32,620 bases of DNA from a virus. The DNA is taken from positions 1 through 32,620 of IMG/VR virus record IMGVR_UViG_3300007539_000096; one strand, given 5' to 3'. Positions within the stretch are counted from its first letter, which is position 1. The number at the start of each line of letters is the position of its first letter. Under the pieces are notes generated by a model, which saw only the letters and a program-made list of their open reading frames with translations, was not told the origin of the DNA and did not search any database. The position numbers and the translations under genes were made by a program. This document shows, piece by piece, positions 7,326 through 24,698 of this stretch.

Positions 7326-7335
7326 TTCTTCCTTT

Positions 7336-7530: not shown

Positions 7531-7558
7531 CTCGAATGAGACGCCGCCAAAAGTGGTT

Positions 7559-7696
7559 TCAGTCCTTGTCGCAGTCCTCTTCGCAGGAGCAGCAGCAGTC
7601 GTTGCACCGGTTGCAACGTCCGCCCCAGATTAGCGCACCAAGTACGGTTGTGGCTCCGAGGCAGGCGAACAGTAGTAGAGCCAGGAACGGTGTCAT
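7559..7696 (-). CDS. Small membrane protein with a cysteine cluster
   Basis: 45 residues. Residues 2-23 form one hydrophobic segment (TPFLALLLFACLGATTVLGALIW), a membrane anchor or signal sequence. The rest packs seven cysteines into about 16 residues (RCNRCNDCCCSCEEDC) with an acidic end. The start at 7696 overlaps the upstream stop as ATGA and has AGGAGG 11-12 nt upstream. Such a cluster could bind zinc, iron or copper, or be palmitoylated-like or disulfide-bonded at the membrane. A GTTGCAAC palindrome falls inside the cluster codons (7610-7617). No family recognised. It is unusual among early phage genes. Confidence 0.6.
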   Translation of the reverse strand: MTPFLALLLFACLGATTVLGALIWGGRCNRCNDCCCSCEEDCDKD

Positions 7697-7926
7697 CGCA
7701 TTGCCTCCTCTCTGATGTCGTTGCGAACCATGTTTACGCATTGCTCAAACGTGGCAGCGGTCCATCGCCGTTCGTCCGTTGCGCACCAGACGCTCCATTC
7801 ATCGCTTACCTCGATTGTGACGCCCACGGCTGTGCGGTGCTTCCACTTGCCGTATTGCAAATACCAGCTGCCGGGTAGAAGTGCGTCCAGTGTCCGTGTG
7901 AGTTGTTCGTTCAGTTCTTCGTTCAT
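7693..7926 (-). CDS. Small hypothetical protein
   Basis: 77 residues, family not recognised. It begins with a helix (NEELNEQLTRTLDALLPGSWYLQY), then strands containing many Trp (GKWKHRTAVGVTIEVSDEWSVWCATDERRWTA), then a helix (ATFEQCVNMVRNDIREEAM). The domain looks compact and complete. Start and stop both share ATGA with neighbours (7923-8219 upstream, 7559-7696 downstream), so it is translated as part of a coupled string. Confidence 0.65.
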   Translation of the reverse strand: MNEELNEQLTRTLDALLPGSWYLQYGKWKHRTAVGVTIEVSDEWSVWCATDERRWTAATFEQCVNMVRNDIREEAMR

Positions 7927-8219
7927 TGCAGTTGTTTGGGTTGGCTGTTAATGGTTGCAAGTTCAGACTTAAAACAATCGGCACAGATGCCGTGACTTCC
8001 AGTGGGTTGGCCCCAGGTGCAAAAGCGGATTCTGTGGCCGGAGCCGCCTTTGACGTAGGTGCCGCCGCACCAGGAACAGGTGATGAGTTTGCGTTTGCGC
8101 AGACCGCGCAGCAGTTCCCGGAGCAGTTGCGCCGTGACTCCGATTGAGACGACAATGCCGAGGACGATGATGTAGACGACAGCGACAGGGACTGCCATGA
8201 TGAAAGAGATGAATTTCAC
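7923..8219 (-). CDS. Membrane-anchored zinc-ribbon protein
   Basis: 98 residues. An N-terminal hydrophobic helix (residues ~3-30, ISFIMAVPVAVVYIIVLGIVVSIGV) is followed by a basic stretch (RGLRKRK) and a Cys pattern CSWCGG ... RFCTWG ... CADC, a zinc-ribbon-like unit. The start is GTG at 8219 overlapping the preceding stop; an ATG 8 codons further on (MAVPVAV) is a possible alternative. By the positive-inside rule the zinc unit should be cytoplasmic. Two other frames are open over this stretch but give proline/serine-rich products without structure. Function unknown. Confidence 0.6.
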   Translation of the reverse strand: MKFISFIMAVPVAVVYIIVLGIVVSIGVTAQLLRELLRGLRKRKLITCSWCGGTYVKGGSGHRIRFCTWGQPTGSHGICADCFKSELATINSQPKQLQ

Positions 8220-8473
8220 TTGAGGCTCCCAAAGTTCAGGGTTGAGGTTTTGTCCAGACCGCGCCGCTCAATCCATGCGTCATAGGCTCTGGCTACCTGA
8301 CGCACTGTGTCGCCGCACTCGCAGAAGAGGGCAGGGGTTTCTTTGCGCTTCGGGTTGCGCTGTTGCCGTTCCAGTTCCCGGCACCGCTGGCAGACCCACT
8401 CGCGCCCACCGGAGCATCGTATGGTTCCTGGATTGCCGCACTCGCACTCACGATTCTGTTTTCTTGTTTTCAT
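8216..8473 (-). CDS. Small Cys-rich zinc-binding-like protein
   Basis: 85 residues. Cysteines come in pairs: RECECGNPG, IRCSGG, WVCQRCRE and LFCECGD, enough for two zinc sites. The region between is strongly basic (RELERQQRNPKRKE), suggesting nucleic-acid binding. It overlaps the downstream membrane zinc-ribbon gene by 4 nt (GTGA) and the upstream DnaJ-like zinc protein gene by 26 nt. No SD is apparent, so translation is probably coupled. Family not recognised. Confidence 0.55.
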   Translation of the reverse strand: MKTRKQNRECECGNPGTIRCSGGREWVCQRCRELERQQRNPKRKETPALFCECGDTVRQVARAYDAWIERRGLDKTSTLNFGSLK

Positions 8474-8633
8474 TGTCTTTGGTTGTGAATCCTAGCTCCC
8501 AAGCGTGAATGATTGTCAGTCCTTGCAACTCAGGAGGCAGTTCAGGGTCGATTCCATTGAAGACGCTGCCGCACTCCTCGCAATGGTCGATGCCGCTTCC
8601 GTCACAGAACTGGCACTGTTGTCGTTGCTCCAT
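8448..8633 (-). CDS. Small DnaJ-type zinc-finger protein
   Basis: 61 residues. The start CQFCDGSGIDHCEECG is the CxxCxGxG ... CxxC signature of half a DnaJ zinc centre. The rest (PELPPELQGLTIIHAWELGFTT) is short and may bind a partner. The start at 8633 has a clear GAGGAG site 8 nt upstream. Small proteins with this motif are common in phages, and their role is mostly unknown. It is the first gene of the leftward early block with a good binding site. Confidence 0.65.
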   Translation of the reverse strand: MEQRQQCQFCDGSGIDHCEECGSVFNGIDPELPPELQGLTIIHAWELGFTTKDNENKKTES

Positions 8634-8719
8634 AGGTTTATCTCCTCATCTCGTTCTGCCTCCTCGAGCAGTCGGCGTTGGAGTCGGCGGCTGGGGTGGC
8701 GTTGGGTTTGTGTTTTCAT
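8516..8719 (-). CDS. Doubtful small ORF at the head of the early block
   Basis: 67 residues, beginning MKTQTQRHPSRRLQRRLLEEAERDEEINL, which looks like a plausible charged helix, then a Ser/Ala-rich part that overlaps the better-supported DnaJ-like gene in another frame. There is no SD. It could be a short leader protein, or the region could simply be the untranslated leader of the early transcript. Low confidence. Confidence 0.25.
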   Translation of the reverse strand: MKTQTQRHPSRRLQRRLLEEAERDEEINLWSNDNSASSVTEAASTIARSAAASSMESTLNCLLSCKD

Positions 8720-8722
8720 CTG

Positions 8723-8750
8723 TTGACAGTGGTTAAAAGAGGCTTAGTGT
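8723..8750 (+). promoter_or_regulatory. Putative promoter of the plus-strand RHH gene
   Basis: TTGACA at 8723-8728 (perfect -35), 16-bp spacer, then TAGTGT at 8745-8750 (matches the first, second and last positions of TATAAT). Transcription would begin near 8757, three bases before the ATG at 8760, giving an almost leaderless mRNA. That fits the lack of an SD. The weak -10 suits a regulated promoter. Confidence 0.4.
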
Positions 8751-8759
8751 GCGTGTGCT

Positions 8760-8990
8760 ATGAAAAAAACAGTTGCAAAGACTGAAACTAATGCCGCCGG
8801 TCGGACCTACGTTGGCCGTGGGATTTCGATGCCCGGCGAGCTATGGGAACGGATTGACCGCTACGTGCACGAGGCGTATCCTCGGTTTGCGAATGTGAGC
8901 CACTTCCTTCAGGTTGCGGCTTACAGTGCGATGAAAACTGAGGCAGCTCAGAATGAGCCATCCAAAACAAACTCTGGTCGAGACCGTTGA
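8760..8990 (+). CDS. Ribbon-helix-helix (RHH) DNA-binding regulator
   Basis: 76 residues on the plus strand, against the general direction. The middle (YVGRGISMPGELWERIDRYVHEAYPRFANVSHFLQVAAYSAMK) reads as strand - helix A - turn - helix B of an Arc/CopG-type RHH: strand GRGISMP, helix GELWERIDRYVHEAYP, turn FANVS, helix HFLQVAAYSAMK. RHH proteins bind operators as dimers of dimers through the strand pair. The N-terminus is basic (MKKTVAKTETNAAGR) and the C-terminal tail polar. It is transcribed away from the leftward early block, only about 40 bp from its first possible start, so it is well placed to control that block and itself. Confidence 0.75.
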   Translation: MKKTVAKTETNAAGRTYVGRGISMPGELWERIDRYVHEAYPRFANVSHFLQVAAYSAMKTEAAQNEPSKTNSGRDR

Positions 8991-9664: not shown

Positions 9665-9910
9665 CTACTGGTCCACACGCCTGAAGCCCTGCTTCCACAG
9701 CACCTTCGCAATCGCTGTTGCTGCTGGATAAACGTCCTCTTCGGGCTTGTCTGGAAACACCTCGTGCAGACATTCGTGTATCAGTGTGTCCAGATAGTCG
9801 AACGGGCACTGGCGCGGATCCACCTCTATCACGCCGTCGCCGTAGCTCAACCCAACTGCGCCTTCGCGGCCCAGCTTCCGTTCTACGACTCGGATTCTTT
9901 TTCTCACCAC
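9665..9910 (-). CDS. Small HExxH zinc metallopeptidase-like protein
   Basis: 81 residues. The centre TLIHECLHEVFP carries H45-E46-x-x-H49, the gluzincin zinc motif, with a preceding strand (GVIEVDPRQCPFDYLD) and a following acidic residue cluster (KPEEDV) that could supply the third ligand. It is like the short SprT/M78-like phage peptidases, far smaller than full enzymes. The start is GTG at 9910, overlapping the Cys-rich gene by 7 nt. It is the last gene of the late operon and meets the plus-strand RHH gene tail to tail. Possible roles: virion or host-protein processing, or lysis. Substrate unknown. Confidence 0.65.
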   Translation of the reverse strand: MVRKRIRVVERKLGREGAVGLSYGDGVIEVDPRQCPFDYLDTLIHECLHEVFPDKPEEDVYPAATAIAKVLWKQGFRRVDQ

Positions 9911-10131
9911 ACGTCCTCCGGGCAGTGTTCCGCTTCTCTACAGAGCCTGCGACAGCACTGCTTGCTGATGTTGCACGCCTCGAAGGCTTCGTTGTAGTTG
10001 CTGCACTTTTTGCACAGCACCATGCGCACTGCAAACCGCTCCAGAGTGTGTCCCTGCGCAGGCTCGCTGTTCACCTCGTGCCGCCACAGGTTCTGCACCC
10101 GCACACGCCTGCCTGTGACTCTGAACATCAT
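9904..10131 (-). CDS. Small Cys-rich protein
   Basis: 75 residues. The C-terminal half is packed with cysteine: CKKCSNYNEAFEACNISKQCCRRLCREAEHC, eight Cys in 31 residues, enough for two zinc sites or several disulfides. The N-terminal half is a basic strand-rich segment (MFRVTGRRVRVQNLWRHEV). The start at 10131 overlaps the stop of the 1240-residue tail protein as ATGA, and the stop overlaps the metallopeptidase gene, so the three are coupled. Not recognised. Confidence 0.6.
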   Translation of the reverse strand: MMFRVTGRRVRVQNLWRHEVNSEPAQGHTLERFAVRMVLCKKCSNYNEAFEACNISKQCCRRLCREAEHCPEDVW

Positions 10132-13100
10132 ACCAGCGGCACCTCCACCCAGAACTGGTCTGTTAGCAGCGGCGTGTAGGTGATTTCATTCGAAGCCGCA
10201 TTGATTCGTGGGCCAGATGCAATGCGTGCGTCGAAGGGCAGTGGAGGGTTAGCCCTGAGCCACGTCCCGCACGGCACAGTCTCACACGTCACTGTCTCTG
10301 TTGCTATGGCGTCCCAGCACCAGAAGCTGGTCCCGCCGTCATCCGTCCAAACGCTGGTGAAGCCGCTGCTGTTGTCGCAGTACTCCTCCGAGCCAGGAGC
10401 CCGCTTGCTGCCCTTGCGCTCGGTGTAGGTTGTGCGGCTGACTCTGGCTATGAAGCCACCAAAGTTGTTTTCCATCAGCTCTTTCACACCGTCAGGCAGG
10501 CAGTATTCCCACGCCGTGTCCCAGTAGATGCGATGCATGACCCTATCCTCTTCGCAATGGATGCCATCTGGGCTGTAGTTGGACTCGATGCTGCGCCGCA
10601 CCTGCTTGGCTCCATCCAGCCAGCCGTAGCTGCCGAACAGCGTGTCAGGAGCAGGCCCGGTCACGTTGTCGAGCATACCGTTTGTGTAGGTCAGGTTTAC
10701 GTCAGCGGTGTAGTTGTCATACTGGTATTGCAGCTTAGTCGGCACCGGAAGCCGCGCTTTTGTGAGCAGGTTGAGCATGCGCGAATGCCGGTTGAAAGTG
10801 TCTGCATAGATGTTCGTGTTTGGCATTGGACCGAAACCCTCTGGAACATCGTCTCGTGCTGCGTCTCCTATGAATCCAGTCCATCTGGTTCCGTTTGCTT
10901 CGTATTGCAGGTTTTCCCATGAATAATCGTATAGTGTTCCGTAGTCGCTGAAGCCGACCGGGTTGTTTTCGCAGACATGTTGCAGGCTCAGTGCCTCATC
11001 CATCCACCCTTCACATCCAGCCCGCAAATACAGGTCCAGTTTCTGGTGTTCGTCCACGGTCATGCGCGTGTCCCAGCTCTGGACCGTGTCGTTGCCGTCG
11101 TCGTATGGCTCGTTCTGGAGCGCGACTAGGAACACGGTAGGATAGCATGCTCCATAAACGTCAGTCGGTGCCGTGTAGCCGCCGTAGTCACCCAGCGATG
11201 CCAGCGGGCACTGCCAGTGACCATTGTTTAGATGCACATGGTATGACCGAAGAGCATTGTCAATCGTCCTGTAGCCGTTCAGCCCTGTCAGTTCGTCCTC
11301 TAGGTCTGTGACTGTGCTTGGCTTGGTTCCGCCCAAGTCCCACGTCGGCGCGGTAGCTGACCAGCTGCTAGGTGCGTCCTCGTGCGTCTGGAACCTGCCA
11401 CTGAAGGTGATTTTGACGATGTCCGCGTCCCAGTCATGCACCACCGCAGATTCAACCTCAACCGGCGGCTCGTAGACGCGGCAGCTCTTTCTGAATCTGG
11501 TGCCGTCCACCATGTAGCGCGTGTCGTGGTTCGCGCCTTCCACGTATCTGTATCCGGTCGGCGCTTCTGGTGCATAGAGTGCGGACTGGGCGCGTGGATT
11601 GCCTTTTGTCGTTGCTCCAGTGGCAGAATCCACGGTCACCGTGTAGTTGTAGCTGACAAATCCCACGAGCGCCGCTGGAAAGTCGTTGCTCTTGAAATGG
11701 CACCGGTCGCTGAACGCCCAGTAATCGGAATACGCGCTGGGTTTATAGATGCTGCTCTCGCTCGGGTCGTAGTGCTTAGGTTCAACGAAGGAACACCAGC
11801 GGTTCGTCCATCCGTTTTTCAGCGCACTGCTTCTGATGCCGTCGTAGACATAGACTGACGCCGTTCCGTCTGATGTGTAGGTCTTTGCCGCTCCAGCTGT
11901 GAATGTTGCTCCGTCGCCGTAGTTGCCGCCGCCGTATTGGACGCTGCCTGTGCCTTTGACGATGTATGTCTCGCCTGGTTGTAGGCTTCCACTTGCAATG
12001 GCATCAGGCGGTGGAGCGATTCCTGCCAATAAATCAACCCTGCTGTTTTTGAGTCCATAGGCATAGCGTTTGTAGTAGAGAATGGATTTGCCGTCTGCCA
12101 CCTCGTAGGCGACGAAATTGCGCCGTGGCAGGATGTGCAGGCATTTGTTCGTGAGCCGCCTAGCCACGTCATAGAGCGGGTTACGGTTCACCTCTGGGCC
12201 GCTACTGATAGGCCAGCTACCGACGATGCAGCCGTAGCGCATAAAGTTGTCACCGATGGCTTTGCTGGTCTCGACGTCAATGCCGCGGCCATCCACCTGC
12301 CGCCCGTTGCCAGCCGCAGCTAGCCGCAGAATCATTGCCGCGTCCCAGTGGTCAGGTTTCCGGTCCTCCAGCTCTGCGAACTCGCACCGTATTTCTCCAT
12401 CTGCGGAAGAAAACCGCACCTGATTGCCGATGCGCACCTTCAGTTCAGACCGTTGCGCTGCGTTGCTAAACCAGAACAGAGCAGAAGCGTTGCCGTCGTC
12501 GTCAGGTGTAAGGCTGGTGCTGTAAAGCTGGGTCGCACCGTCCAGAACCTGAACAGTCGCCGCTGTCTCCAGTTCCTTGGCCTTTACGAAAACGGCGGCG
12601 GCAACAAAGCCGTCTGCGATTGCGTATGAGGTTCCGCCTGTTACCCACCTTGCTTCTGTGCCGGATTCGTGCTGTATGGCTCCGGTGATGCGGCAGCTTG
12701 GATACTGCACGTCAATCGCGGTCTGGTCAGGACTGAGTGTGCCGCGTGCAGGAGCAAGCGCGTATTGGCGGGTAAAGAACCTTTGTGCGTCAAAGGCTAT
12801 GGACTGGATTTTGAATGTGTCTTTGATTCTCTGGTATGTGCTGCCACGGAAGTCAGAAGCCATCGCAGCGACGATGCGGTTTAAGTGGTCTCCGCCTGTG
12901 TGAACTAGGTCGCCGTATCCTTCATACGGTCCCTCAATCCAATCCTGCAACGGGAATACATCTGTTGAATAATCAGCGCAGTCTGTTGAGTTGCTGACAT
13001 ACACAATATATGACATGCCGCCCTTAACTATGCCCTGTATGTGCCCATCGCCGTGCGTCTCTGAACCGCATGGACAGCCGCCAGCGTATGTGATGACCGG

Positions 13101-13850
13101 GTAGCCGTCGCCGTCGTAGCTTAATGTTCCGCTGTGGCTTGGAATATCCACATCCGTGCGTAGTCCTGTAAATTTTCTTCGGTAGTTGATAACTCCATAG
13201 CCTATGTCAGGCGTGATGCCGTCGCTGTCGCCGCAGTATGTTGTGGTTCCAGTGTAGGTGTAGGTGGTTTGTATCTGTTCCGGTGTTGGAAGGTAGCCGC
13301 CATACGACTTGCCGTGCGGACTCCAATAGTGACTGGATATCCGCATCCACGCCTGCGCCGCATCTCCGGCAGGCCAAGCAGTCACTCCTGCGTCGGCGTC
13401 AATGCCGCCTCGCTGATACTTGCTCAGCTCCCAGTATTGTTCCAGCGTCTGCGGCGGCTGCAGGTTCCAGAGCAGCGGAAGTTCGTTATATCTATCTTCC
13501 TCCTCTACTGTAACAACTGGACTTCCTTTGACCAGCGCCATGCCTGTGCAGGCTAGGTTCGCACCCTCGTTGTCACCGGCGTCTGCTGTAGGGAATATCA
13601 GGTCGGTTTTTTCCGGGTCCACGGCACCGTAGATGTCCCAGTATTCCAGTTGCGATGGAAACAGGTAGCCGCTTGCGTCAGGGTTGCGCATCTGACGCCA
13701 CAGGTTGACCAAGTAGTAGCTGACGCGCCAGGCCCAGTCACCGATTCCGCTCAGCATCCTGTCATTGACGGCAGCGGCCTGCGCCGCCATATCCGACGAC
13801 GTAGGCCGCTCACCAACCTCAACAACAGGTGCTCGCGTGAAGGTAATCAC
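10128..13850 (-). CDS. Large tail-tip / receptor-binding structural protein
   Basis: 1240 residues, the longest gene. Its place after the tape measure and distal-tail genes, and its size, mark it as the tail tip or central fiber. It is rich in Tyr, Trp, Asp and Gly and has fiber-like segments, e.g. LQPGETYIVKGTGSVQYGGGNYGDGATFTAG near residue 630, a motif seen in phage fibers. It has many Cys (for example GGCPCGSETHGDGH near 260), unusual for a cytoplasmically made virion protein. No enzymatic motif is clear; PNTNIYADTFNRHSRMLNLL near 1020 may be a helical joint. Start is GTG at 13850. It contains no GTTGCAAC site, while these are frequent elsewhere. Confidence 0.7.
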   Translation of the reverse strand: MITFTRAPVVEVGERPTSSDMAAQAAAVNDRMLSGIGDWAWRVSYYLVNLWRQMRNPDASGYLFPSQLEYWDIYGAVDPEKTDLIFPTADAGDNEGANLACTGMALVKGSPVVTVEEEDRYNELPLLWNLQPPQTLEQYWELSKYQRGGIDADAGVTAWPAGDAAQAWMRISSHYWSPHGKSYGGYLPTPEQIQTTYTYTGTTTYCGDSDGITPDIGYGVINYRRKFTGLRTDVDIPSHSGTLSYDGDGYPVITYAGGCPCGSETHGDGHIQGIVKGGMSYIVYVSNSTDCADYSTDVFPLQDWIEGPYEGYGDLVHTGGDHLNRIVAAMASDFRGSTYQRIKDTFKIQSIAFDAQRFFTRQYALAPARGTLSPDQTAIDVQYPSCRITGAIQHESGTEARWVTGGTSYAIADGFVAAAVFVKAKELETAATVQVLDGATQLYSTSLTPDDDGNASALFWFSNAAQRSELKVRIGNQVRFSSADGEIRCEFAELEDRKPDHWDAAMILRLAAAGNGRQVDGRGIDVETSKAIGDNFMRYGCIVGSWPISSGPEVNRNPLYDVARRLTNKCLHILPRRNFVAYEVADGKSILYYKRYAYGLKNSRVDLLAGIAPPPDAIASGSLQPGETYIVKGTGSVQYGGGNYGDGATFTAGAAKTYTSDGTASVYVYDGIRSSALKNGWTNRWCSFVEPKHYDPSESSIYKPSAYSDYWAFSDRCHFKSNDFPAALVGFVSYNYTVTVDSATGATTKGNPRAQSALYAPEAPTGYRYVEGANHDTRYMVDGTRFRKSCRVYEPPVEVESAVVHDWDADIVKITFSGRFQTHEDAPSSWSATAPTWDLGGTKPSTVTDLEDELTGLNGYRTIDNALRSYHVHLNNGHWQCPLASLGDYGGYTAPTDVYGACYPTVFLVALQNEPYDDGNDTVQSWDTRMTVDEHQKLDLYLRAGCEGWMDEALSLQHVCENNPVGFSDYGTLYDYSWENLQYEANGTRWTGFIGDAARDDVPEGFGPMPNTNIYADTFNRHSRMLNLLTKARLPVPTKLQYQYDNYTADVNLTYTNGMLDNVTGPAPDTLFGSYGWLDGAKQVRRSIESNYSPDGIHCEEDRVMHRIYWDTAWEYCLPDGVKELMENNFGGFIARVSRTTYTERKGSKRAPGSEEYCDNSSGFTSVWTDDGGTSFWCWDAIATETVTCETVPCGTWLRANPPLPFDARIASGPRINAASNEITYTPLLTDQFWVEVPLV

Positions 13851-16250: not shown

Positions 16251-16809
16251 GCTGCTTCCTCTTGTAAAACTCCATTATTTCCTGTTCCTGCGGAGACGCA
16301 AACCGTAGGCCACCTTCCTGCGCCCAGTAGCCGCAGACCTCCCACAGCGCCTGTGTCAGCGGCAGCTCCATAGCCTCCTGCATCGTCACGCCGATGCGGC
16401 TTGTGAGTGTGCCGACGAGTGTCCTCAGTGCATCTCCATCACCGGGCTGTGCGTTCTGTTTTCGGTCAGACGGCACAAACACGGTCGGTCCCTGCCAGCT
16501 GCGCCTGACATAGTTCAGCAGCACCTGCACGTTGCGCTCTTGGGCTAGGAGCAGCTTCAGACCCAACCACGAAATCTGAAGCTGCCCCACCCTCGACTCG
16601 ATGCGCTTGGCGGCGCGGGTCTGAGTGCGACTAAACACAAACACGGCAACAGCAGCCTGCCCAAGTGTAACAGAGTAGGGCAGTGCGGTAGGTGCGGCTA
16701 GAGGACTGCCTAGCCGCCGCAGCAGAAGCGCATGTCCAACCTGCATCGGCAGCAGTGTGGTGCCTGCAATGCGTGTGCGGTCAGGAAATATGGCTTCTGC
16801 GTAATCCAT
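16231..16809 (-). CDS. Probable tail assembly chaperone
   Basis: 192 residues between the major tail protein and the tape measure, the standard position of tail assembly chaperones. The N-terminal TTLLPMQVGHALLLRRLGSPL is like the phage chaperone segment found in similar proteins (PFSLGHxLLLxRxGSP). A helical middle (AAKRIESRVGQLQISWLGLKLLLAQE) and a C-terminal helix (ALWEVCGYWAQEGGLRFASPQEQEIMEFYKRK) follow. I looked for a programmed frameshift linking it to the next frame, as in lambda G/GT, and saw no slippery heptamer at the overlap with the tape measure. The start at 16809 is 2 nt after the major tail protein stop. Confidence 0.6.
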   Translation of the reverse strand: MDYAEAIFPDRTRIAGTTLLPMQVGHALLLRRLGSPLAAPTALPYSVTLGQAAVAVFVFSRTQTRAAKRIESRVGQLQISWLGLKLLLAQERNVQVLLNYVRRSWQGPTVFVPSDRKQNAQPGDGDALRTLVGTLTSRIGVTMQEAMELPLTQALWEVCGYWAQEGGLRFASPQEQEIMEFYKRKQHGETAT

Positions 16810-16811
16810 TA

Positions 16812-17264
16812 TTAGCTCACGGCGGTCGTCAGTGTGGTGGCGTCAGAGCCTGATGCTGTATAGCGGACAAGGTTGAGGCTGACCGTGGCGAAACCGTCGC
16901 TAGTTTCTGAAGCGGTAAAGCCGCCGTCATAAATCCAGTCTCCGTTTGCTTCGCTGTTGCGGTCGCTGGCAATCGTCACCTTGATGCGGGCACCAGGCGA
17001 AACCAGAGCAGCAGCAGCGTTGGCTACTGTGTGCGTGGTTTTCGACACAGCGAGAGCAGAAACGCGGCAGCTATACATCTCGCGCCCGTTCGCAGCACCG
17101 ATGACTTCGCCGGTGGTAGGGTTAATCAAGTCCTGCTTGATGGCGTGGTCATGCGTGACCTCCATGCTGGTTATGAGCAGCTCGCAGGTCGCGCTTAACC
17201 CGCTCCAGCTGATTGTGCCATAGGTGTGCGGTACGCCCGCTGTTCCATAGTTCGTGTATGCCAT
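16812..17264 (-). CDS. Major tail protein
   Basis: 150 residues with the beta-rich, Thr/Ser/Gly-rich look of a siphovirus tail tube protein (TISWSGLSATCELLITSMEVTHDHAIKQDLINPTTGEVIGAANGREMYSCRVSALAV ... ARIKVTIASDRNSEANGDWIYDGGFTASETSDGFATVSLNLVRY). Alternating strands and the DGGFTA-xx-SDGFATVSLNL ending fit a tube subunit. Its position before the chaperone and tape measure is as expected. AGGAGAAATAAAC precedes ATG at 17264. In most genomes it directly follows the tail terminator; here a 6.7-kb module of exported proteins stands between them. Confidence 0.65.
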   Translation of the reverse strand: MAYTNYGTAGVPHTYGTISWSGLSATCELLITSMEVTHDHAIKQDLINPTTGEVIGAANGREMYSCRVSALAVSKTTHTVANAAAALVSPGARIKVTIASDRNSEANGDWIYDGGFTASETSDGFATVSLNLVRYTASGSDATTLTTAVS

Positions 17265-17266
17265 GT

Positions 17267-17953
17267 TTATTTCTCCTGTTTGTTGTTGAGTTTCTCCAAA
17301 ACCGCCTCCAGTGCATCCGGTATGCCATTTTTATTCGCATCCACCATACCCTGAAGGTATCCGTGCCGCCGGAACATGTAGATTGCACCGCCTCCGACGC
17401 AGACGAGAATCAGCACCAGCGTTTCATTCCCGGCTAGCATCTGCGCTCCGAATATCAGTGCCGCACCCGCAGCACCCGTCCAGACCTGAACAGTGGTCCC
17501 GGTAAATGCTCTGATGGCAGGATGGAACATGGCTAGAGCTGCCAGCAGCAGGCCAAACCCTAGCAGCTTGATAGAACCGTAACTGCGCAACTTAGCTTCC
17601 AGCTTTGCCACACTCGCCCAGTCGTCCCTAGCTCTATCATGCTGCGCTGTTCCCATGCTTGTTCTGATACTCTCGGTGACTCTGGTGCCATCTATGGTCC
17701 GCTCGTAAACCTGCTCGCTAGGAGTCTCCTGATTCTCGCCTTGTTCAAAGTTTAGCGTCGGCACTTCACCTACAGGCACGAGCTGTGGTGCATCTGGAGT
17801 CTGAACCAGTGCCATCTGTTGCAACTTCGCAGTGTAGCTGCTGCCCTTCTGCGGAGCTGGTGGCAGCATCTTGCAGCCGCTAGCCAGTAACAGCAGGCAC
17901 GCAAACACAATGGCCCAACCTAGAAATTCTACGACGCGGTGGAATGATTTCAT
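17267..17953 (-). CDS. Lipoprotein with membrane segments and EF-hand-like loop
   Basis: 228 residues. The N-terminus (MKSFHRVVEFLGWAIVFACLLLLASGC) is a lipoprotein signal ending in lipobox LASGC, so Cys27 should be lipidated. A polar region (30-125) is followed by two or three hydrophobic segments (IKLLGFGLLLAALAMFHPA; VWTGAAGAALIFGAQML; TLVLILVCVGGGAIYMF). The C-terminus has DANKNGIPDALEAVLEKL, an EF-hand/thrombospondin-type calcium loop (D-x-N-x-N-G-x-x-D). It overlaps the holin-like gene as ATGA, and a GTTGCAAC site lies inside (17818-17825). Roles to consider: outer-membrane lysis component (spanin-like), or superinfection exclusion at the envelope. Lipobox and loop are seen; function is inferred. 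Confidence 0.7.
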   Translation of the reverse strand: MKSFHRVVEFLGWAIVFACLLLLASGCKMLPPAPQKGSSYTAKLQQMALVQTPDAPQLVPVGEVPTLNFEQGENQETPSEQVYERTIDGTRVTESIRTSMGTAQHDRARDDWASVAKLEAKLRSYGSIKLLGFGLLLAALAMFHPAIRAFTGTTVQVWTGAAGAALIFGAQMLAGNETLVLILVCVGGGAIYMFRRHGYLQGMVDANKNGIPDALEAVLEKLNNKQEK

Positions 17954-18159
17954 GATTTCGGTTTGTTTTCGGTTAGTTTCTGCCAGCCCTTGAGACCTAG
18001 AACAGACGCCACAAGATACACCTGCTCAATAGGAATCGCTGCCACGGCTCCGGTTTTGACAGTCACATAAACCAACTGGAACAGGACTGCTGCCACGACT
18101 GCCAGCATAGCAACTCTAGTGCTGCTGGTTGTATCTGATTTGCTGCTTAATACGCTCAT
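17950..18159 (-). CDS. Small two-helix membrane protein, holin candidate
   Basis: 69 residues. A polar N-terminus (MSVLSSKSDTTSSTR) is followed by two hydrophobic segments (VAMLAVVAAVLFQLVYVTV and AIPIEQVYLVASVLGLKGW) and a polar basic end (QKLTENKPKS). Size, topology and coupling to a lipoprotein gene (ATGA overlap) fit a class II-like holin. Holins form the lesion that starts lysis. No endolysin is recognisable nearby, which weakens the call. It starts 1 nt after the stop of the beta-helix protein gene. Confidence 0.5.
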   Translation of the reverse strand: MSVLSSKSDTTSSTRVAMLAVVAAVLFQLVYVTVKTGAVAAIPIEQVYLVASVLGLKGWQKLTENKPKS

Positions 18160-18160
18160 A

Positions 18161-19849
18161 TCAATATGCTCCTATGGTTACTGTTTCGGCTCTGATGGTT
18201 CCTGCCCCAGATGCAGCCGGTGCCTCGGTCTGTGTGCTGCTGTTCGTCACCGACTCTGCGCTGATGGTTGCCACGTCATTGCCTGCCGCATCCTCCAGTC
18301 CGTCGCCGGGATTCGTGTAGCTCACGGTCACAGTCTCGCCTGAGTAAACAGTCGGCACAGTGTAAACCAGACTGGTGGTGCCGCTTCCGCTGCTGTAAGT
18401 CGCAGTCTGTGCCCCGCCACCGTCCACACTGATTGTCATGCCACCGCTGCCACCTGAGCCGACGACTGTTGCCTCTCCAAAAACAACGGTCAGTGTGGTT
18501 CCGTCAGTTGCGACTGAAGCAGAGCTGAATGCTGGCGGCGTGGTGTCTGTTCCGCTATACTCATACGCCCCAATATCCCACGTTCCATCACTGCCTCTGG
18601 TTGCCCCGAGCAGGTCTGTGCTGTATGTGGCTCCAAGGTCTGCGCCAAGGTCTTTTGCCGACGATGACGCACCGATTGTGTAGTCTCCGCCAGCATAGTT
18701 TACGAACGGGTCAGATGCAGAACCCACGCCGTTAGATTCAGACGTTGTTCCGTCATAGAGATTGTAGTCGTGCGAGAGGTTTGTTGCCTCGTAGTCTAAG
18801 GTCACAGCGTAAAATATGTTGTTGGTAAAAGAGCTGGAATTAAAGTTAGCATTCGCACCGACAATACCGTAGCTCATATTCACGATGGTGTTGTTGTGAA
18901 ACTCGACCTCCACATAGCCTGTGTCATATTTCTGAAGGTCTGCCTCAAAAGCCCTGGCAGTGGTGCCTCCGTCATGAAACACATTGCCGTAAACCTGGCA
19001 TCCAGTCCGCACACCTTCCGCTGGACCAGCGTGATAAACCCCTTCTGCGTTATAGTTGGATATGTCGTTATAGCGCACAACTAGGTTGTCGCATGTCTCG
19101 CCCTGTGCGTATATTACGTTCGTGTGGTATGCCACATTACTAGACCTCGCATCCTTCAGAACGCAGTATTCTATGGTAACATTAGAGTGCTGAAATACGT
19201 ATATCAGTGTGGAAAAGCCGTGGATTTTGCAGTGCGAAATAAGCAGGTTATCGGAGCTTGCTCCAGGCGTTAAGTCCATCCCACGCACACCGCTTGTGTA
19301 GTTATAGTCAGAAGTTGTATCTGCTGGTCCGTCCAGCTCGATATATTTAATCTCCCAGTAATCGCACGCGAATCCCCAAAATACACCGCCGCTGTTTGCG
19401 CCCTCCGCGCAATTAACCTTGATTCCGTATTCAGTCTGACCGTCGATTGTGATGTAGTCGCGGCTTGCGTCTGGGTATATGACGTTCGCTGCTCCAGTGT
19501 CTATTGTTACCTGCCCATCGTATCCTGCGCTCCATCCAGTTGCCGATGTTGCGGCGCTGTCGGACGCGGTGGCACGTTTCAGTGTTATCGGGTTGCCGCT
19601 GGTTCCACTGCCCTTAATGACAACTGACTGAGTGTATGTTCCGGCAGCTATCCAAAGCGTGTCGCCTGCTCCAAGCTGTCCAGCCGAAGCGCCCCACACC
19701 ACATCTGAAAAGCCATTAAATGCGTTGTCCCAGTCTGAACCATCTTCAGCACCGTATGAACCGCCGTTTGGGCGAACAAACAAGTCCTCAGCCGATGCGC
19801 TAAAGCAGATGCAGGCTGCAACAAATGTTCTAGTCAGACAATTCAGCAT
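18161..19849 (-). CDS. Secreted beta-helix spike / depolymerase-like protein
   Basis: 562 residues. The start at 19849 gives an N-terminal signal peptide (MLNCLTRTFVAACICFSASA, cut likely before EDLFVRP). Then a right-handed parallel beta-helix (about 25-400): short Asn/Ile/Val-rich turns such as DNLLISHCKIHGF, SNVTIEYCVLKDA, DNLVVRYNDISNY, VEVEFHNNTIVNM. Then WDIGAYEY, a typical closing motif of choice-of-anchor Q proteins, and a C-terminal Ig-like SWM-type domain (TTPPAFSSASVATDGTTLTVVFGEATV). Beta-helix proteins in phages are often tail spikes that bind or cleave polysaccharide; no catalytic residues can be assigned. It overlaps the LamG gene by 20 nt. The signal peptide is unexpected for a virion part. 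Confidence 0.75.
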   Translation of the reverse strand: MLNCLTRTFVAACICFSASAEDLFVRPNGGSYGAEDGSDWDNAFNGFSDVVWGASAGQLGAGDTLWIAAGTYTQSVVIKGSGTSGNPITLKRATASDSAATSATGWSAGYDGQVTIDTGAANVIYPDASRDYITIDGQTEYGIKVNCAEGANSGGVFWGFACDYWEIKYIELDGPADTTSDYNYTSGVRGMDLTPGASSDNLLISHCKIHGFSTLIYVFQHSNVTIEYCVLKDARSSNVAYHTNVIYAQGETCDNLVVRYNDISNYNAEGVYHAGPAEGVRTGCQVYGNVFHDGGTTARAFEADLQKYDTGYVEVEFHNNTIVNMSYGIVGANANFNSSSFTNNIFYAVTLDYEATNLSHDYNLYDGTTSESNGVGSASDPFVNYAGGDYTIGASSSAKDLGADLGATYSTDLLGATRGSDGTWDIGAYEYSGTDTTPPAFSSASVATDGTTLTVVFGEATVVGSGGSGGMTISVDGGGAQTATYSSGSGTTSLVYTVPTVYSGETVTVSYTNPGDGLEDAAGNDVATISAESVTNSSTQTEAPAASGAGTIRAETVTIGAY

Positions 19850-20585
19850 AAGTGCGAGTGCCTCCAGAGTTATAAACCCATGCCTTTTCTTCGGTTGTGA
19901 GTTTCCGGTTGAATAAACCGACAAAGTCAATTTCCATATTTTTTCCGACTGTCGCTGTGCCGCCGCCGAAATACAACGCCGTGCCGGGGGATGTGAACGT
20001 CTCGCTTTGCGTTGCAAGGTCAGTGTTGTTTATCCACATATTGTGGTCTCCTGCTGAATTGTCATATTCCAAAACCACAGTATACCACGTTCCTACACTG
20101 GGTATCGTTGTCGATTGTATTTCCGACGCATCCGCTATCCTGCCACGTATGCCGTTTGATGTTATGTAGCGCACCGCAACTCCACCGGTGCTACTTGACA
20201 AGGCATAGTCCCCCGATGCTACTCCGGTGTAACTTCTGAACCTAACCACCATGGTTGCGTCAGTTGATGAGTCAGGCAACCAGACTCCTGCGCCAATAAT
20301 TCCAGCTATCGTCCACAGCTTGTCTCCAGTTGCAGCAGCAATTCCGCGACTTGGCGAGGTGTCGTATGTTGGAGAATTAACCTCCGTGAGGTCGTGGGTC
20401 GAGTGCGAGTCTGTTGCATCAGCGAAGTCATACCACGCAATAAGCGACGCTTTGCTAAGGCCTCCACCGCCAACCTCATCATTCACAGTGCCGCCCAGAA
20501 ACACCGGGTCAGCCAGGTCCAGCACTCCAACTTGTGCCTGAACCTGAACCAGACCGAGTAACAGAACTAGCAGCAGTCGTTTCAT
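19830..20585 (-). CDS. Secreted LamG / concanavalin-like carbohydrate-binding protein
   Basis: 251 residues. Signal peptide MKRLLLVLLLGLVQVQAQ at the N-terminus. From about residue 45 a LamG jelly-roll: SLIAWYDFADATDSHSTHDLTEVNSP, then strand segments TMVVRFRSYTG, TWYTVVLEYDNSAGDHNMWIN, and the usual end IDFVGLFNRKLTTEEKAWVYNSGGTRTYAEL. LamG domains bind sugars or receptors; phages carry them in tail fibers, hosts in secreted proteins. ATGA overlap with the gene before it. It may be a receptor- or glycan-binding accessory of the neighbouring fiber and beta-helix proteins. Confidence 0.75.
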   Translation of the reverse strand: MKRLLLVLLLGLVQVQAQVGVLDLADPVFLGGTVNDEVGGGGLSKASLIAWYDFADATDSHSTHDLTEVNSPTYDTSPSRGIAAATGDKLWTIAGIIGAGVWLPDSSTDATMVVRFRSYTGVASGDYALSSSTGGVAVRYITSNGIRGRIADASEIQSTTIPSVGTWYTVVLEYDNSAGDHNMWINNTDLATQSETFTSPGTALYFGGGTATVGKNMEIDFVGLFNRKLTTEEKAWVYNSGGTRTYAELSD

Positions 20586-20947
20586 GGAATCACTTCAAGG
20601 TGCGCTTCAACCTCGGTTTTCGTAGCATCGTCCGCAGATTCATATTTCTCCAAGAGTTCAGCCTGAATCAGCCGCTTCTCTTGAGCCACGATGGCGTTGA
20701 GTTTAGCTGTGAATAGTGCCTGAACATATTGCAGCGCCGTCATCTGTGGCACTGTGGCAACGTCCACATCAGGATTCTCGGCAACGGCTTTAGCAACAGC
20801 TTCAGCATTCATTCTGGTAACGACGCGCTGCACAGCTTTGAGCTGGACCGGCGTGTAGCTGAGGGTAGCGTCAGCAGCAGTTGCGGTTACAGTGAAGGCT
20901 GCGAGAGCCACGATAAGTGCTAGTGTCTTTTTCATATAGTCTTTCAT
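20582..20947 (-). CDS. Small secreted helical protein
   Basis: 121 residues. A signal peptide (MKDYMKKTLALIVALAAFTVTATAADA) is followed by a nearly all-helical body (TPVQLKAVQRVVTRMNAEAVAKAV ... QYVQALFTAKLNAIVAQEKRLIQAELLEKYESADDATKTEVEAHL) with possible coiled-coil character. ATG at 20947 overlaps the upstream stop as ATGA; Met5 is an alternative start. Its size and helical body suggest an oligomeric adaptor or chaperone for the large exported proteins around it. That is inference. No family recognised. Confidence 0.65.
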   Translation of the reverse strand: MKDYMKKTLALIVALAAFTVTATAADATLSYTPVQLKAVQRVVTRMNAEAVAKAVAENPDVDVATVPQMTALQYVQALFTAKLNAIVAQEKRLIQAELLEKYESADDATKTEVEAHLEVIP

Positions 20948-21390
20948 TCAAACCAAGCGCCACCAATGAAACAGTTAGTGGTCGCAGTTCCGGTGTTAAA
21001 CAAGCTGATAACAGCGTGGTTAGTTACTGTGATGCTGAACGACTCAGCTCCAGATGCTTTGTATTCAGGCACAGCCGTAATCGTGCGAGCGGTGCCGTCA
21101 GCTCTCACCTCAATCTGCGCCCTTGCTCCTGATGTAAGATTGCTGGCGATGATGTAGCAGTCACCCGTCAGCTCGATGATGCCGTAGGTGTTGGTGCTCG
21201 CCATGTTCACGACTAGGTTGGTGCCATCCAGGCTCAGCGTGTTGAACGGCGTCAGCACCCGGCCTATGTTAAGCGTGGTCATGGTCACGTCATCGTCAAA
21301 CGCAACGCCGCCACTGTTGCTGTATCGCACCTGCCCGACTGCAATACCGAGCAGGCCCAGAGTTAAGAGTGTTGCAAGAGTCTTTTTCAT
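20944..21390 (-). CDS. Small secreted beta-rich protein
   Basis: 148 residues. The start at 21390 is ATG (MKKTLATLLTLGLLGIAVGQ, a signal peptide with lysines, a hydrophobic core and a likely cut near GQ/V); a GTG 3 codons upstream is less likely. The mature part is beta-rich (GVAFDDDVTMTTLNIGRVLTPFNTLSLDGTNLVVNMASTNTYGIIELTGDCYIIASNLTSGARAQIEVRADGTARTITAVPEYK ... CFIGGAWFE), like the trimeric beta-domains of small tail fiber tips. Two Cys in the mature part could form a disulfide outside the cytoplasm. It is next to the 869-residue fiber and may be its cap or chaperone. Confidence 0.65.
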   Translation of the reverse strand: MKKTLATLLTLGLLGIAVGQVRYSNSGGVAFDDDVTMTTLNIGRVLTPFNTLSLDGTNLVVNMASTNTYGIIELTGDCYIIASNLTSGARAQIEVRADGTARTITAVPEYKASGAESFSITVTNHAVISLFNTGTATTNCFIGGAWFE

Positions 21391-21391
21391 A

Positions 21392-24001
21392 TTAGCCACC
21401 CACTTCGGTCAATGTAATGGTCGCGACCCAGCGCGTGTTATCACCCGTTCCGCCGGTGCAGGATATATCCAGTGCCTCGTTTGTGTCGTCGGCAGATACC
21501 GTCACATCCCACGTTGCATCATCCTCAGCCAGCACTGTCTTAGTCACGCTGCCAACTAAGGTGGTGTTTGATGCGCCGTCGCGTTTAATCAGACCTTCAA
21601 ACTTATAATACCCCGACTGCTCTACGCCTGCCCCTGCATCCGTCGTGCGCCCGACCACTGAAACGGTGAAGCCCCAGCTTGTGTTTGCTGGCAGGACTAA
21701 ACGCGCACTAGAGCCGCCCAAAAACAGGTCGGCAGGAGTCGTGCCGCTGGTTGTGTTGCGAGCGACTAAGCGTGAGCCTTGGGCATCGCCGTTTGCTGCG
21801 AAACGACCGGAGGCGTATGCGTGTTGACCGTAGAGGTATGCGTTGGCGTATCGCCCTGCGAATACCGAACCGTAGGCTCCAGGGGCGGATGAAGATGCCC
21901 CGCCGACAACAGCGGAGCCATAACCTGTTGCAGTGGAAGACGAACCTCCAATCGCCACAGAAAAAGTACCTCCGGAGGTTAAACTTGTGCCACCTATTGC
22001 AACCGAATATTGTCCACTAGCTGTAGCGTAGGAGCCACCAATGGCAACGCCCCTAGAGGCAGATGCCGAGGGTGCTTGCCCTCCGATTGCGACCGAGAGG
22101 TCGCCGGATGCCGTCCGGCTGGCGTCTGGGTACGTGCTGACTGTTACTGCATATTGCCCACGCGCAGTAGTCGGAACTGTGCCTCCGAAAACCTCAAACG
22201 CACCCAATCCAGTCGTGCGCATGCGCAGAGTTTGGTCATCCGCACCTGTGCCTGCTGTTTCTAGAGCAATGGTTCCGGTCCCGGAGCCGTCGTGGCTGAG
22301 GCTGATTCTGGAGTAATTGGAGGCGTCTGTGTAGGTGCCGTAAATCCTCGAGGTCTGGGCATTTGTGCCGTTGCGTTGAGCTAAGGTTCCGGCGGAGTCA
22401 TAGGTTATTACCGTTGGGTTGTTAAGGCTGTCTACAATGCTGAAACCCAATGGCCCATAGTATGCGGAGCTTCCACCAGTAGACTGGTATACTTTCACAT
22501 ATGGAGTGTTTCCGCTTTCGATATGCACCCGGCCCGACCCCGCTTTTCCATCCACAGAGAACTTTTTGAAGCCCGAGGAATAAACCGACAATATATCACC
22601 GGTGATGCTGCTATTAACATTAATCCCCGCCATATTCGTAATCGTTCCCGTGCCGTTGCCATCGAGTGTGCCAGGAATTGTGACGGTGCCATCTGGATAG
22701 ATGCTGAGCTTGTTTGTGTTGCTGCCGACGTCTGCGTTTGGACCATAGACAAATCGCAGCTCCGAGCCGTTCGCATTCGTGCTCGTGAGTTTGGCCAGCG
22801 TCCACTTGTCAGTGATTGCAGAGCCGTCCTCCGCAACCTCGGTAAAGTCCAATGCAGAACTAAATCCGCCTTCAGGTCCGCCTACGAGTGCCATATTGCC
22901 CTCTGTGCCGTTAACGACCAGGCCGTACGGAGCAGGTGACAGCACAGTTGCAGCTGCCAGAGCGCGGTTGGTGGTGCTGATTAATGCGCCACCGAATGCC
23001 TCTGTATTGTTTGCTGTGATGTTGTTGCTGACGCTGAGGCTTGGCATCCACCACTTGCCGTTTGTGTCAAAGTTGCCGAGTGTGGTTGAGCCAGCATCCA
23101 CGTCGGTGTTTGCGTATTTTCGGAACACCATCTTGTTATCGTCTGAACCTAAGCCGTAAACGGTTGTGCCTGTCGTTGCGCCACGGTCACGAAATGCCAT
23201 GACTGCGTTTTGGCCCTGCTGAACTGATGCGCCAGACGGCTGCACCCGATACACCTGCTGAGTGGCCACCGTAAGAGGGTCGGTCATGTCGCCGTAAAAC
23301 ATCTCCAAATAGCCGCCGTCCGCGTTTTTGCCTTTGGACCAGACCCACTTGTCAACGAGGCTGGTTCCAGTCGGGTCAACCTCCACATGCTCAAACACGG
23401 TGCTGTGACCGCCCTCGCTGGTTCCGACTAAAGCCATGGTGCCGTCTGTTCCTGCAACTGTTAAACCCACAGGGTAGTTGCCGACCCAGTTTGTGTTGAG
23501 AGTCCAGTTCGTCGTGACAATGGACACGCCTGACAGCTGTCCGGTGTCGTGGTCGGTAATGTTCGTGCTGATGAGCAGGTAGCCGCTGCTGATGTAGTCC
23601 GCATTCAGCAGCTGCCCGGTTCCGGCCAGGTCGTTTGTGCCGGTCAGGTCGGAGCCGCCGCCAGGTGGAATGTATGTGATACCATCGCTGGTCAGCGTCC
23701 CTATTTCATGGCTGCCACTGCCTGATGGCACACTGATTTTGATTTTGTCGTAGCCGCCGATTCTGACCTGATACAAGCCTTCGACCAGCGACACAGACAG
23801 CACGCCGTCAGTTGCAGTCGTGCGCACAGGTCTGCCGGTTGTAATGAGCGCGTCACCAGTTTGCAGTGGCGTGGTAAGCGGCCAAAACTCAACGCGCACA
23901 GTTGTCGCGTCGCCATTCGCGTCCTGAATTGTGCCGGTAACAGTTGCAGCGTTTGCAACAGTTGCAACGACAGACAAAATCAAGGTCAGTAGTAATCTCA
24001 T
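21392..24001 (-). CDS. Tail-fiber-like protein with signal peptide and YadA-like repeats
   Basis: 869 residues. N-terminus MRLLLTLILSVVATVANAA is a textbook Sec signal peptide. Residues ~20-110 look like a carboxypeptidase-regulatory-type beta domain (ATVTGTIQDANGDATTVRVEFWPL). Two copies of a ~80-residue unit follow: GLTVAGTDGTMALVGTSEGG and GLVVNGTEGNMALVGGPEGG, each continuing to a DKW motif. Near 635-745 there is a YadA-head-like repeat (SRGVAIGGSYATASGQYSVAIGGTS...), and a beta C-terminal domain at the end. The architecture is that of a trimeric phage fiber, but the signal peptide would send it through the membrane, where virion parts are not normally assembled. It overlaps the upstream membrane-protein gene as ATGA. 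A GTTGCAAC site lies in the signal-peptide codons (23961-23968). Confidence 0.8.
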   Translation of the reverse strand: MRLLLTLILSVVATVANAATVTGTIQDANGDATTVRVEFWPLTTPLQTGDALITTGRPVRTTATDGVLSVSLVEGLYQVRIGGYDKIKISVPSGSGSHEIGTLTSDGITYIPPGGGSDLTGTNDLAGTGQLLNADYISSGYLLISTNITDHDTGQLSGVSIVTTNWTLNTNWVGNYPVGLTVAGTDGTMALVGTSEGGHSTVFEHVEVDPTGTSLVDKWVWSKGKNADGGYLEMFYGDMTDPLTVATQQVYRVQPSGASVQQGQNAVMAFRDRGATTGTTVYGLGSDDNKMVFRKYANTDVDAGSTTLGNFDTNGKWWMPSLSVSNNITANNTEAFGGALISTTNRALAAATVLSPAPYGLVVNGTEGNMALVGGPEGGFSSALDFTEVAEDGSAITDKWTLAKLTSTNANGSELRFVYGPNADVGSNTNKLSIYPDGTVTIPGTLDGNGTGTITNMAGINVNSSITGDILSVYSSGFKKFSVDGKAGSGRVHIESGNTPYVKVYQSTGGSSAYYGPLGFSIVDSLNNPTVITYDSAGTLAQRNGTNAQTSRIYGTYTDASNYSRISLSHDGSGTGTIALETAGTGADDQTLRMRTTGLGAFEVFGGTVPTTARGQYAVTVSTYPDASRTASGDLSVAIGGQAPSASASRGVAIGGSYATASGQYSVAIGGTSLTSGGTFSVAIGGSSSTATGYGSAVVGGASSSAPGAYGSVFAGRYANAYLYGQHAYASGRFAANGDAQGSRLVARNTTSGTTPADLFLGGSSARLVLPANTSWGFTVSVVGRTTDAGAGVEQSGYYKFEGLIKRDGASNTTLVGSVTKTVLAEDDATWDVTVSADDTNEALDISCTGGTGDNTRWVATITLTEVGG

Positions 24002-24270
24002 TTCAATTTCTCCAGCTTCTCCAGTTCATGCTTCAGCGGGCACTGCCCAGCATGTGCCTTGTCACATTTCGAGTGTGCTCTATTCACCATGTCAGCCAGC
24101 GCGTCCTCTCTCTTGATGCGCTTAAGCCGCACATAAATTGTCTGTGCCGTCATCACGATTGCCAGCACGAGCGCCACAAACTGCGCGATTTGATACGCCT
24201 CTTCGATAGTCGGAATGTAGGTGAATCCAACCAGACTCCACGCGCTTGCGACTTTTGCTCCGTCTATCAT
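23998..24270 (-). CDS. Small membrane protein, possible holin
   Basis: 90 residues from the start at 24270, which overlaps the tail terminator stop as ATGA; an in-frame Met four codons upstream (24282) is also possible. A hydrophobic region spans about residues 12-45 (VGFTYIPTIEEAYQIAQFVALVLAIVMTAQTIYV), at least one membrane helix, then a basic and charged tail (RLKRIKREDALADMV ... KCDKAHAGQCPLKHELEKLEKLK) with two Cys. This is the plan of some small holins. It opens the cassette of signal-peptide proteins, so it could also help their export or lysis timing. Uncertain. Confidence 0.5.
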   Translation of the reverse strand: MIDGAKVASAWSLVGFTYIPTIEEAYQIAQFVALVLAIVMTAQTIYVRLKRIKREDALADMVNRAHSKCDKAHAGQCPLKHELEKLEKLK

Positions 24271-24698
24271 CCGGTTATCCATGTCTGAAATGTTAGCTGC
24301 CTTTCGTACAGCCCGTCAGTCTGCAACAGTTGCTCTCCAGCTAGCTGGAAAAAGCTGCAAGCGGCGGTCGAGTCGTATGACTCCATTGCGGTTTTGACTT
24401 CGCGCACAACCCGTTCCGGGTCGAGGTTCAGACCTGCGTCCGTGTAGCGGTTCACTTCGTCATTGAAGCTGCACAGCACTACGACCGAAGCTGTTCCGAG
24501 TGAAATTCCGTTGCCGGTCGCCTGAGCTGAAAGATTGTCAGGCTGGCGTATAACGATGACTGCGCCGGTGCTGCGCCTGGCGTTGCCTGCTGCGTCGTTC
24601 TGCTCTCCATCATCCAGCAGCACAGAAACACCGTCGATGTAATCAACTGCGCTGATTAAGTCGTATGCTTTGGCTTGGATGTGGTTGTAGTCGAGCAT
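24267..24698 (-). CDS. Probable tail terminator protein
   Basis: 143 residues at the standard position after the neck proteins. The pattern (AKAYDLISAVDYIDGVSVLLDDGEQ ... GAVIVIRQPDN ... SVVVLCSFNDEVNRYTDAGLNLDPERVVREVKTAMESYD ... LYERQLTFQTWI) has the alternation of helices and strands of lambda gpU-like tail terminators, including an early helix, a beta hairpin and a final strand. These form the hexameric ring that stops tail growth. ATG at 24698 comes 3 nt after the upstream stop. Confidence 0.6.
   Translation of the reverse strand: MLDYNHIQAKAYDLISAVDYIDGVSVLLDDGEQNDAAGNARRSTGAVIVIRQPDNLSAQATGNGISLGTASVVVLCSFNDEVNRYTDAGLNLDPERVVREVKTAMESYDSTAACSFFQLAGEQLLQTDGLYERQLTFQTWITG

Follow-up and report, generated by a model that had tools for sequence, protein, structure and literature searches.

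The window analysed here is a single IMG/VR virus record of 32,620 bp. Its late operon, on the minus strand, resembles that of a small siphophage, with terminase, portal, fused protease-capsid and neck genes followed by genes for the tail tube, tape measure and tail tip. Between a tail-terminator candidate and a major-tail-protein candidate, the latter without a family match in Pfam or PHROG, lies a cassette of coupled genes (Table 1). An earlier note, made from the sequence alone, had counted seven or eight; we count eight, overlapping by 4 to 20 nt or separated by gaps of 1 to 2 nt. Five consecutive genes encode proteins with Sec/SPase I-type signal peptides (SPs), one a lipoprotein and two membrane proteins. 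The cassette is kept in every near-identical sister contig (at least 99.98%) that spans the region and is thus not an assembly accident. Signs of a separate transcription unit were scarce, in that promoter and terminator patterns were not commoner than in shuffled sequences and none was convincing.

Table 1. Coordinates of the cassette, its neighbours and selected features of related and distant phages
Sequence	Feature	Coordinates	Strand	Remarks
Window	Fused head maturation protease and capsid, 632 aa	25989-27887		
Window	Tail-terminator candidate (flanking)	24267..24698	-	Homologues sit at neck positions in relatives
Window	Eight-gene cassette	24282-17267	-	
Window	94-aa holin-like or membrane protein, cassette gene 1	23998..24282	-	One TM segment; overlaps
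Window	Tail-fibre-like protein, 869 aa	21392..24001	-	Predicted Sec/SPase I SP MRLLLTLILSVVATVANA/ATV... (slash, predicted cut); weak YadA_head; mature N-domain homologous to SP-less fibres
Window	First mature domain plus linker of the fibre, residues 19-131	23609..23947	-	Transthyretin-like fold (alignment, AF2 model, tail-tip/neck chain matches)
Window	151-aa beta-rich SP protein	20944..21399	-	SP best from Met4
Window	121-aa SP protein	20582..20947	-	SP call
Window	251-aa SP protein	19830..20585	-	SP call; PHROG_4390 E=1e-4, function unknown
Window	Beta-helix protein (spike/pectate-lyase-like), SP	18161..19849	-	Beta_helix E=2e-8; phrog_30287 E=1e-16
Window	69-aa holin-like protein	17950..18159	-	Two TM segments
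Window	Lipoprotein, 228 aa	17267..17953	-	Lipobox LASGC; further TM segments
Window	Major-tail-protein candidate (flanking)	16812..17264	-	Directly ahead of tail-assembly and tape-measure genes
Window	1240-aa tail protein	10128-13850		Possible receptor-binding tail tip
Window	Small ORF with HExxH-type motif	9665-9910		LIHECLHEVF; no Pfam match
L045	Post-capsid SP family, ~145-170 aa	16104-16541		
L046	Post-capsid SP family	7796-8242		
L050	Post-capsid SP family	7250-7693		
L056	Post-capsid SP family	16278-16712		
L057	Post-capsid SP family	7931-8374		
L058	Post-capsid SP family	7458-7916		
L059	Post-capsid SP family	8021-8536		
L005	Stand-alone 39-aa peptide	6663-6779		Nearly all signal peptide (MKRLLLSTLLLMLCPLALAQYSTATLTHGLTNSIKKGAQ)
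L200	G409 homologue of the window lipoprotein, 293 aa	6606-7487		Multi-TM; between neck and tail genes
L102	SP-bearing ~150-aa protein	8344-8838		Between protease and capsid genes
L112	SP-bearing ~150-aa protein	6721-7197		Between protease and capsid genes
L107	SP-bearing ~150-aa protein	8072-8515		Between protease and capsid genes

Tailed phages assemble their virions in the cytoplasm in all well-studied cases, so signal peptides on fibres and spikes are unexpected; we agree with the earlier note that Sec-type N termini conflict with this route. ORFs were called mechanically, and their N termini were scored with a home-made, rule-based caller that considers n-region charge, h-region hydrophobicity, the residues at -3/-1 and the lipobox. 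On a calibration set of 113 proteins from E. coli K-12 and lambda, it recovered 23 of 25 known exported proteins and flagged 4 of the 88 others, namely three membrane proteins and ldtD, which we take to be exported. Applied to the window, the caller reproduced the proposed run of five SP proteins and the lipobox of the lipoprotein. All five combine a positive n-region, a hydrophobic core and small -3/-1 residues with the absence of a second TM segment; the weakest, the 151-aa protein, is borderline (score 2.09 from Met4 and 1.85 from the GTG). No call was obtained for any other structural gene of the window at its own start. Elsewhere in the window, a replication-side ORF scored only at an internal GTG, and a 60-aa ORF carries a lipobox-like stretch. 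Judged by their N termini, these five proteins are predicted Sec/SPase I preproteins. Export for the sake of disulfide formation was considered and rejected: the mature SP proteins contain 0.78% cysteine, which is not above the 0.87% of cytoplasmic structural proteins.

As to the individual genes, the ORF of the 94-aa protein shares 16 nt with the tail-terminator candidate and 4 nt with the fibre gene and has no Pfam or PHROG assignment. For the 151-aa and 121-aa proteins, no homologues were seen in relatives. The 251-aa protein had been described as a LamG protein, a label that does not hold since there is no Pfam match. The beta-helix assignment was borne out, and the SP-bearing start of this protein is the ATG at 19849, which is preceded by an SD-like sequence, not the TTG at 20017; its C-terminal part shares 39% identity with a protein of Marinobacter phage PS3. 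The membrane and holin-like proteins, likewise as described, have one and two TM segments, respectively; together with the lipoprotein, they may be parts of a lysis cassette. Small TM genes like the 69-aa one come after appendage genes in a relative, G393. No endolysin domain was recognised in Pfam scans covering part of the ORFs. In relative G409, which is without SP fibres, the site between neck and tail genes likewise holds a homologue of the lipoprotein (E=8e-12), and a lysis-type gene may therefore be the older occupant of this site.

Relatives, mostly known from public metagenomes, were found via a two-sequence TerL alignment and number in the dozens. For a survey, we took 18 related contigs with a TerL identity of at least about 44%, several of which are fragments, and 15 control phages as an estimate of the chance rate of SP calls, and counted, among structural-side ORFs of 100 aa or longer, the soluble SP or lipoprotein preproteins. 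Such preproteins made up 40 of 246 ORFs in the relatives versus 1 of 186 in the controls (Fisher p=1.3e-9), and a soluble SP-bearing protein of at least 300 aa was present in 13/18 relatives versus 0/15 controls (p=3e-5), both p values being indicative only, given the dependence among ORFs of one contig and among related contigs. The single call among the controls was lambda Lom, which is truly exported. In a tree built from the TerL proteins of 33 phages, the SP trait needs 5 changes versus a mean of 11.3 after shuffling, with none of 500 shuffles as low, and is found in 15 of the 17 rows of one moderately supported ingroup. P8625, the nearest isolate that we found, sits on a very long TerL branch, and its placement is unsure.

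The carriers of SPs are fibre and spike proteins and, in several relatives, a family of ~145 aa encoded right after the capsid gene. In one relative (G394), five genes in a row encode SP proteins, of 840, 499, 1092, 168 and 412 aa, another (G393) has SP proteins of 145, 924, 187 and 501 aa, and in L005 an SP-bearing beta-helix-like protein follows shortly after the head genes. The large SP-bearing proteins match PHROG families of tail fibres, EPS depolymerases and virion structural proteins; those of the relatives also have Pfam domains of the Phage_depo_C and endosialidase N-terminal types, and one of them is similar to tail spikes of Klebsiella phages (E=7e-13). SPs were absent from the core proteins (terminase, portal, capsid, neck, tape measure and tail tube); the sole marginal call, on the portal of G405, failed a stricter rule. 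In four relatives (G396, G398, G399 and G400) the large SP-bearing proteins are encoded where fibres usually are, behind the tail-tip genes, and other relatives have the module ahead of, between or behind the neck and tail genes; its place in the late operon evidently shifts while the SPs persist. The gene-order comparison suggested by the earlier note thus shows a module that is not unique and sits at differing places, with SPs on fibres and spikes spread over the clade. SP fibres are absent from G401, G406, G409 and P8625, and one relative (G404) has SP-bearing proteins together with an SP-less fibre, which indicates that export is not needed for such fibres.

The post-capsid SP proteins form a diverged beta-sandwich family of ~145-170 aa, encoded directly downstream of the protease-capsid gene in many relatives, and are candidate head-surface proteins. 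An AF2 model of a ~145-aa member (pLDDT 79) has a generic beta-sandwich or jelly-roll fold with many tied matches, and a PDB sequence search for a head-decoration protein returned nothing useful. In the window, the gene directly after the capsid gene encodes an SP-less protein of 74 aa, at the place where many relatives have the SP protein. The fused protease-capsid ORF itself recurs in L005; others, e.g. G401, G402 and P8625, have two separate genes. L005 also encodes a stand-alone 39-aa peptide, coupled to the following structural gene.

We then turn to the 869-aa fibre, for which a YadA-like nature had been claimed. In the window, the YadA_head match stays below the Pfam cut-off (E=0.0025); in one relative it is clear (7e-12). 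No direct homologue of this fibre was found among 50,697 phage records. The same records yielded no direct homologue of the 1240-aa tail protein either; it belongs to no known family, and its one homologue is in G404 (E=1e-75).

An N-domain family of eight members is defined by the initial ~100 residues of the mature window fibre, which are homologous to SP-less fibres of sister phages (E=1e-7). In the window fibre, this first mature domain starts exactly at the predicted cleavage site. Across the family, the domain starts 0, 0 and 2 residues past the predicted cut in the three SP members and at protein residue 2-3 in the five SP-less ones. A second pair with a different N-domain, G407 with and G406 without an SP, shows the same arrangement. 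Structure prediction, as proposed in the earlier note, gave an AF2 model of the N-domain that is mostly confident over residues 1-88 and that matches N-terminal parts of fibre and neck chains from Bxb1, cyanophage A-1(L), Ur-lambda and XM1, where the match likewise begins at residue 2-3. The scores were Z 8.8 for 8keg_a (75 aligned, rmsd 3.3), 8.4 for 9d93_Lb (83, 7.2), 8.1 for 9e7m_Ta (77, 3.8) and 7.7 for 7kjk_A3 (79, 4.2), with cellular TTR-like domains tying. As modelled, the transthyretin/CnaB-like fold is a common one, and since cellular domains score equally, the match supports an attachment role and does not prove it. Dual isoforms made from an internal start were considered as well and rejected: there is no start codon between the SP and residue 35, the TTG codons 7 and 9 lying within the SP, which makes an SP-less isoform by this route unlikely. 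Nor is a trimeric autotransporter adhesin of the YadA type a good candidate. Pfam scans of the YadA-like proteins returned only YadA_head repeats, and the C-terminal anchor barrel for passage through the outer membrane was not found; with Sec alone, the periplasm would be the end point for such proteins.

Exported phage proteins as such are already known. Lambda Lom and similar tail-operon morons are Sec-exported and encoded among tail-fibre genes (PMC12309495), yet Lom is an outer-membrane barrel encoded by a single gene and no fibre. Lys44 of Oenococcus phage fOg44 and the SAR endolysins are tailed-phage proteins whose export signals engage host Sec before lysis (PMC6116005), but these are lysis enzymes, neither fibres nor spikes. 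PBSX XepA, a prophage beta-sandwich protein from a late lysis cassette, is exported during development and reported absent from mature particles (PMC6834076); it, too, is no fibre. The model of the post-capsid SP protein aligns to XepA with Z 8.7 (105 aligned, rmsd 3.1), unrelated folds being equally good. Outside phages, Pantoea WceF is a trimeric enzyme of tailspike fold that carries an export signal (PMC7949094), but the signal is of the Tat type and the gene is a bacterial biofilm gene outside any phage operon.

The closest comparison is P8625 (KP792622), a lytic siphophage of 32.9 kb isolated on a Verrucomicrobia (Puniceicoccales) strain and the only isolate of a Verrucomicrobiota phage that we found. 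Like the window, it encodes a related protease/capsid (28%) and a module of a YadA-like fibre, a small protein, a ConA/LamG protein and small membrane proteins; unlike in the window, this module follows the tail tip. According to its authors, none of its proteins has a signal peptide (PMC4642752), and our caller found none either. The earlier note knew of no described system with this set and order of genes. P8625 provides an SP-less counterpart, and to that extent the claim falls; the part that stands concerns the SPs, as we found no isolated phage with this arrangement and, in a literature coverage largely exclusive of subscription journals and preprints, no account of tailed phages in which Sec signals are found on fibres and spikes as a class.

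Given the comparable SP-less module of P8625, we read the window cassette as an ordinary appendage-plus-lysis module, placed ahead of the tail-tube gene and tagged for export. Its products would be true fibres and spikes behind cleavable Sec signal peptides, exported and joined to the virion at lysis, a reading to which we assign a probability of roughly 40%. The support at sequence level consists of the SP N termini, their clade-wide recurrence, mature parts homologous to fibres and depolymerases, and a predicted cut that coincides with the start of an attachment-type domain. Homology to virion fibre or spike proteins is seen for the SP proteins of the relatives and, through the N-domain, for the window fibre. 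In such a scheme, fibres and spikes would pass through Sec into the periplasm, lose their SP to signal peptidase I, trimerise and be stored there, while heads and tails would be assembled in the cytoplasm. The membranes would then be breached by the holin and other lysis proteins that this module encodes, and the stored appendages would meet the particles and dock via their freed N-domains. The presumed benefit would be to keep sticky or enzymatic appendages away from assembling particles and the cytoplasm until release. Such a two-compartment virion, with heads and tail tubes of cytoplasmic and fibres, spikes and possibly a head-surface protein of periplasmic origin, joined at lysis, is a proposal that we make tentatively. 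Against it, appendages and particles would need to find each other at dilution once the cell has lysed, and the 1240-aa tail protein could be the real receptor-binding part.

The earlier note had offered attachment of fibres outside the cytoplasm, remodelling of the host surface and secreted depolymerases as options. This list was the right one, and clade-wide SPs at the exact boundary of an attachment-like domain favour exported virion appendages over unrelated secreted proteins. Still, in the main alternative, the SP proteins would be exported fibre and spike derivatives that never join the virion. Their site of action might be the periplasm, the cell surface or the exopolysaccharide of an infected cell or its debris, where they would mask receptors against superinfection or trim the capsule so that progeny escape. 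We take this possibility seriously without thinking it probable. The SP proteins commonly have beta-helix, pectate-lyase, CBM or depolymerase domains, WceF and XepA provide examples of an exported tailspike-fold enzyme and of an exported protein absent from particles, and the SP proteins of G404 next to its SP-less fibre keep this alternative alive. It fits less well with a mature N-domain that, as modelled, resembles virion-attachment domains and begins exactly at the cut, with SP proteins in the tail-fibre position of G396, G398, G399 and G400, where no other fibre candidate was seen, or with YadA-like proteins that have no anchor domain in Pfam scans and would stop in the periplasm with Sec alone.

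Another explanation dispenses with export and cleavage altogether: the hydrophobic N termini might serve as membrane or particle anchors or have no effect, with fibres that are cytoplasmic or membrane-tethered and built in normally. Cytoplasmic assembly in all well-studied tailed phages and the homologous fibres of sister phages without any SP would agree with this. However, the full SP anatomy, with a charged n-region, an h-region of 8-12 residues and small -3/-1 residues, is unlike a simple anchor, and the predicted cleavage sites recur at domain boundaries in diverged phages, which makes this explanation unlikely in our view. It seems more improbable still that the genes are morons, i.e., captured host genes for secreted proteins or adhesins with no relation to virion function. 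SP-bearing beta-helix proteins are common in bacteria, and lambda Lom shows that a tail-fibre region can encode an exported protein. Against capture stand the homology to phage spikes and fibres, an N-domain common to SP-less phage fibres, the recurrence across the clade, and genes that overlap or abut with no promoter or terminator pattern of their own above shuffles.

The host is probably a member of the Verrucomicrobiota, as suggested by the TerL sequence: in bacterial genomes, seven of the best matches fall on MAG contigs assigned to Verrucomicrobia or Spartobacteria, although the binning of phage contigs into MAGs is fallible. No SP fibre cassette could be clearly made out in the Verrucomicrobia MAG contigs that were mapped. 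Among 388 sampled genomes from the phylum to which MAG contig L123 belongs, there were only 2 prophages of this TerL family, which gave little host context.

Should the fibres prove to join virions, some components of a tailed phage would be produced outside the cytoplasm, contrary to the standard picture, and the mechanism may be a categorically new one; if they do not, a phage clade would have turned its fibres into exported effectors. Either outcome touches annotation practice. Studies of phage diversity-generating retroelements (DGRs) count absent signal peptides in favour of phages as the source of variable fibre-like proteins (PMC6199706), and in a DGR survey signal peptides were mainly on cellular targets (PMC8144416), a cue that points the wrong way here. 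The finding also gives a concrete question for phages of Verrucomicrobiota. The SP trait may extend beyond this clade, as three distant phages (TerL 27-30%; L102, L112 and L107) encode SP-bearing proteins of ~150 aa, in their case between the protease and capsid genes.
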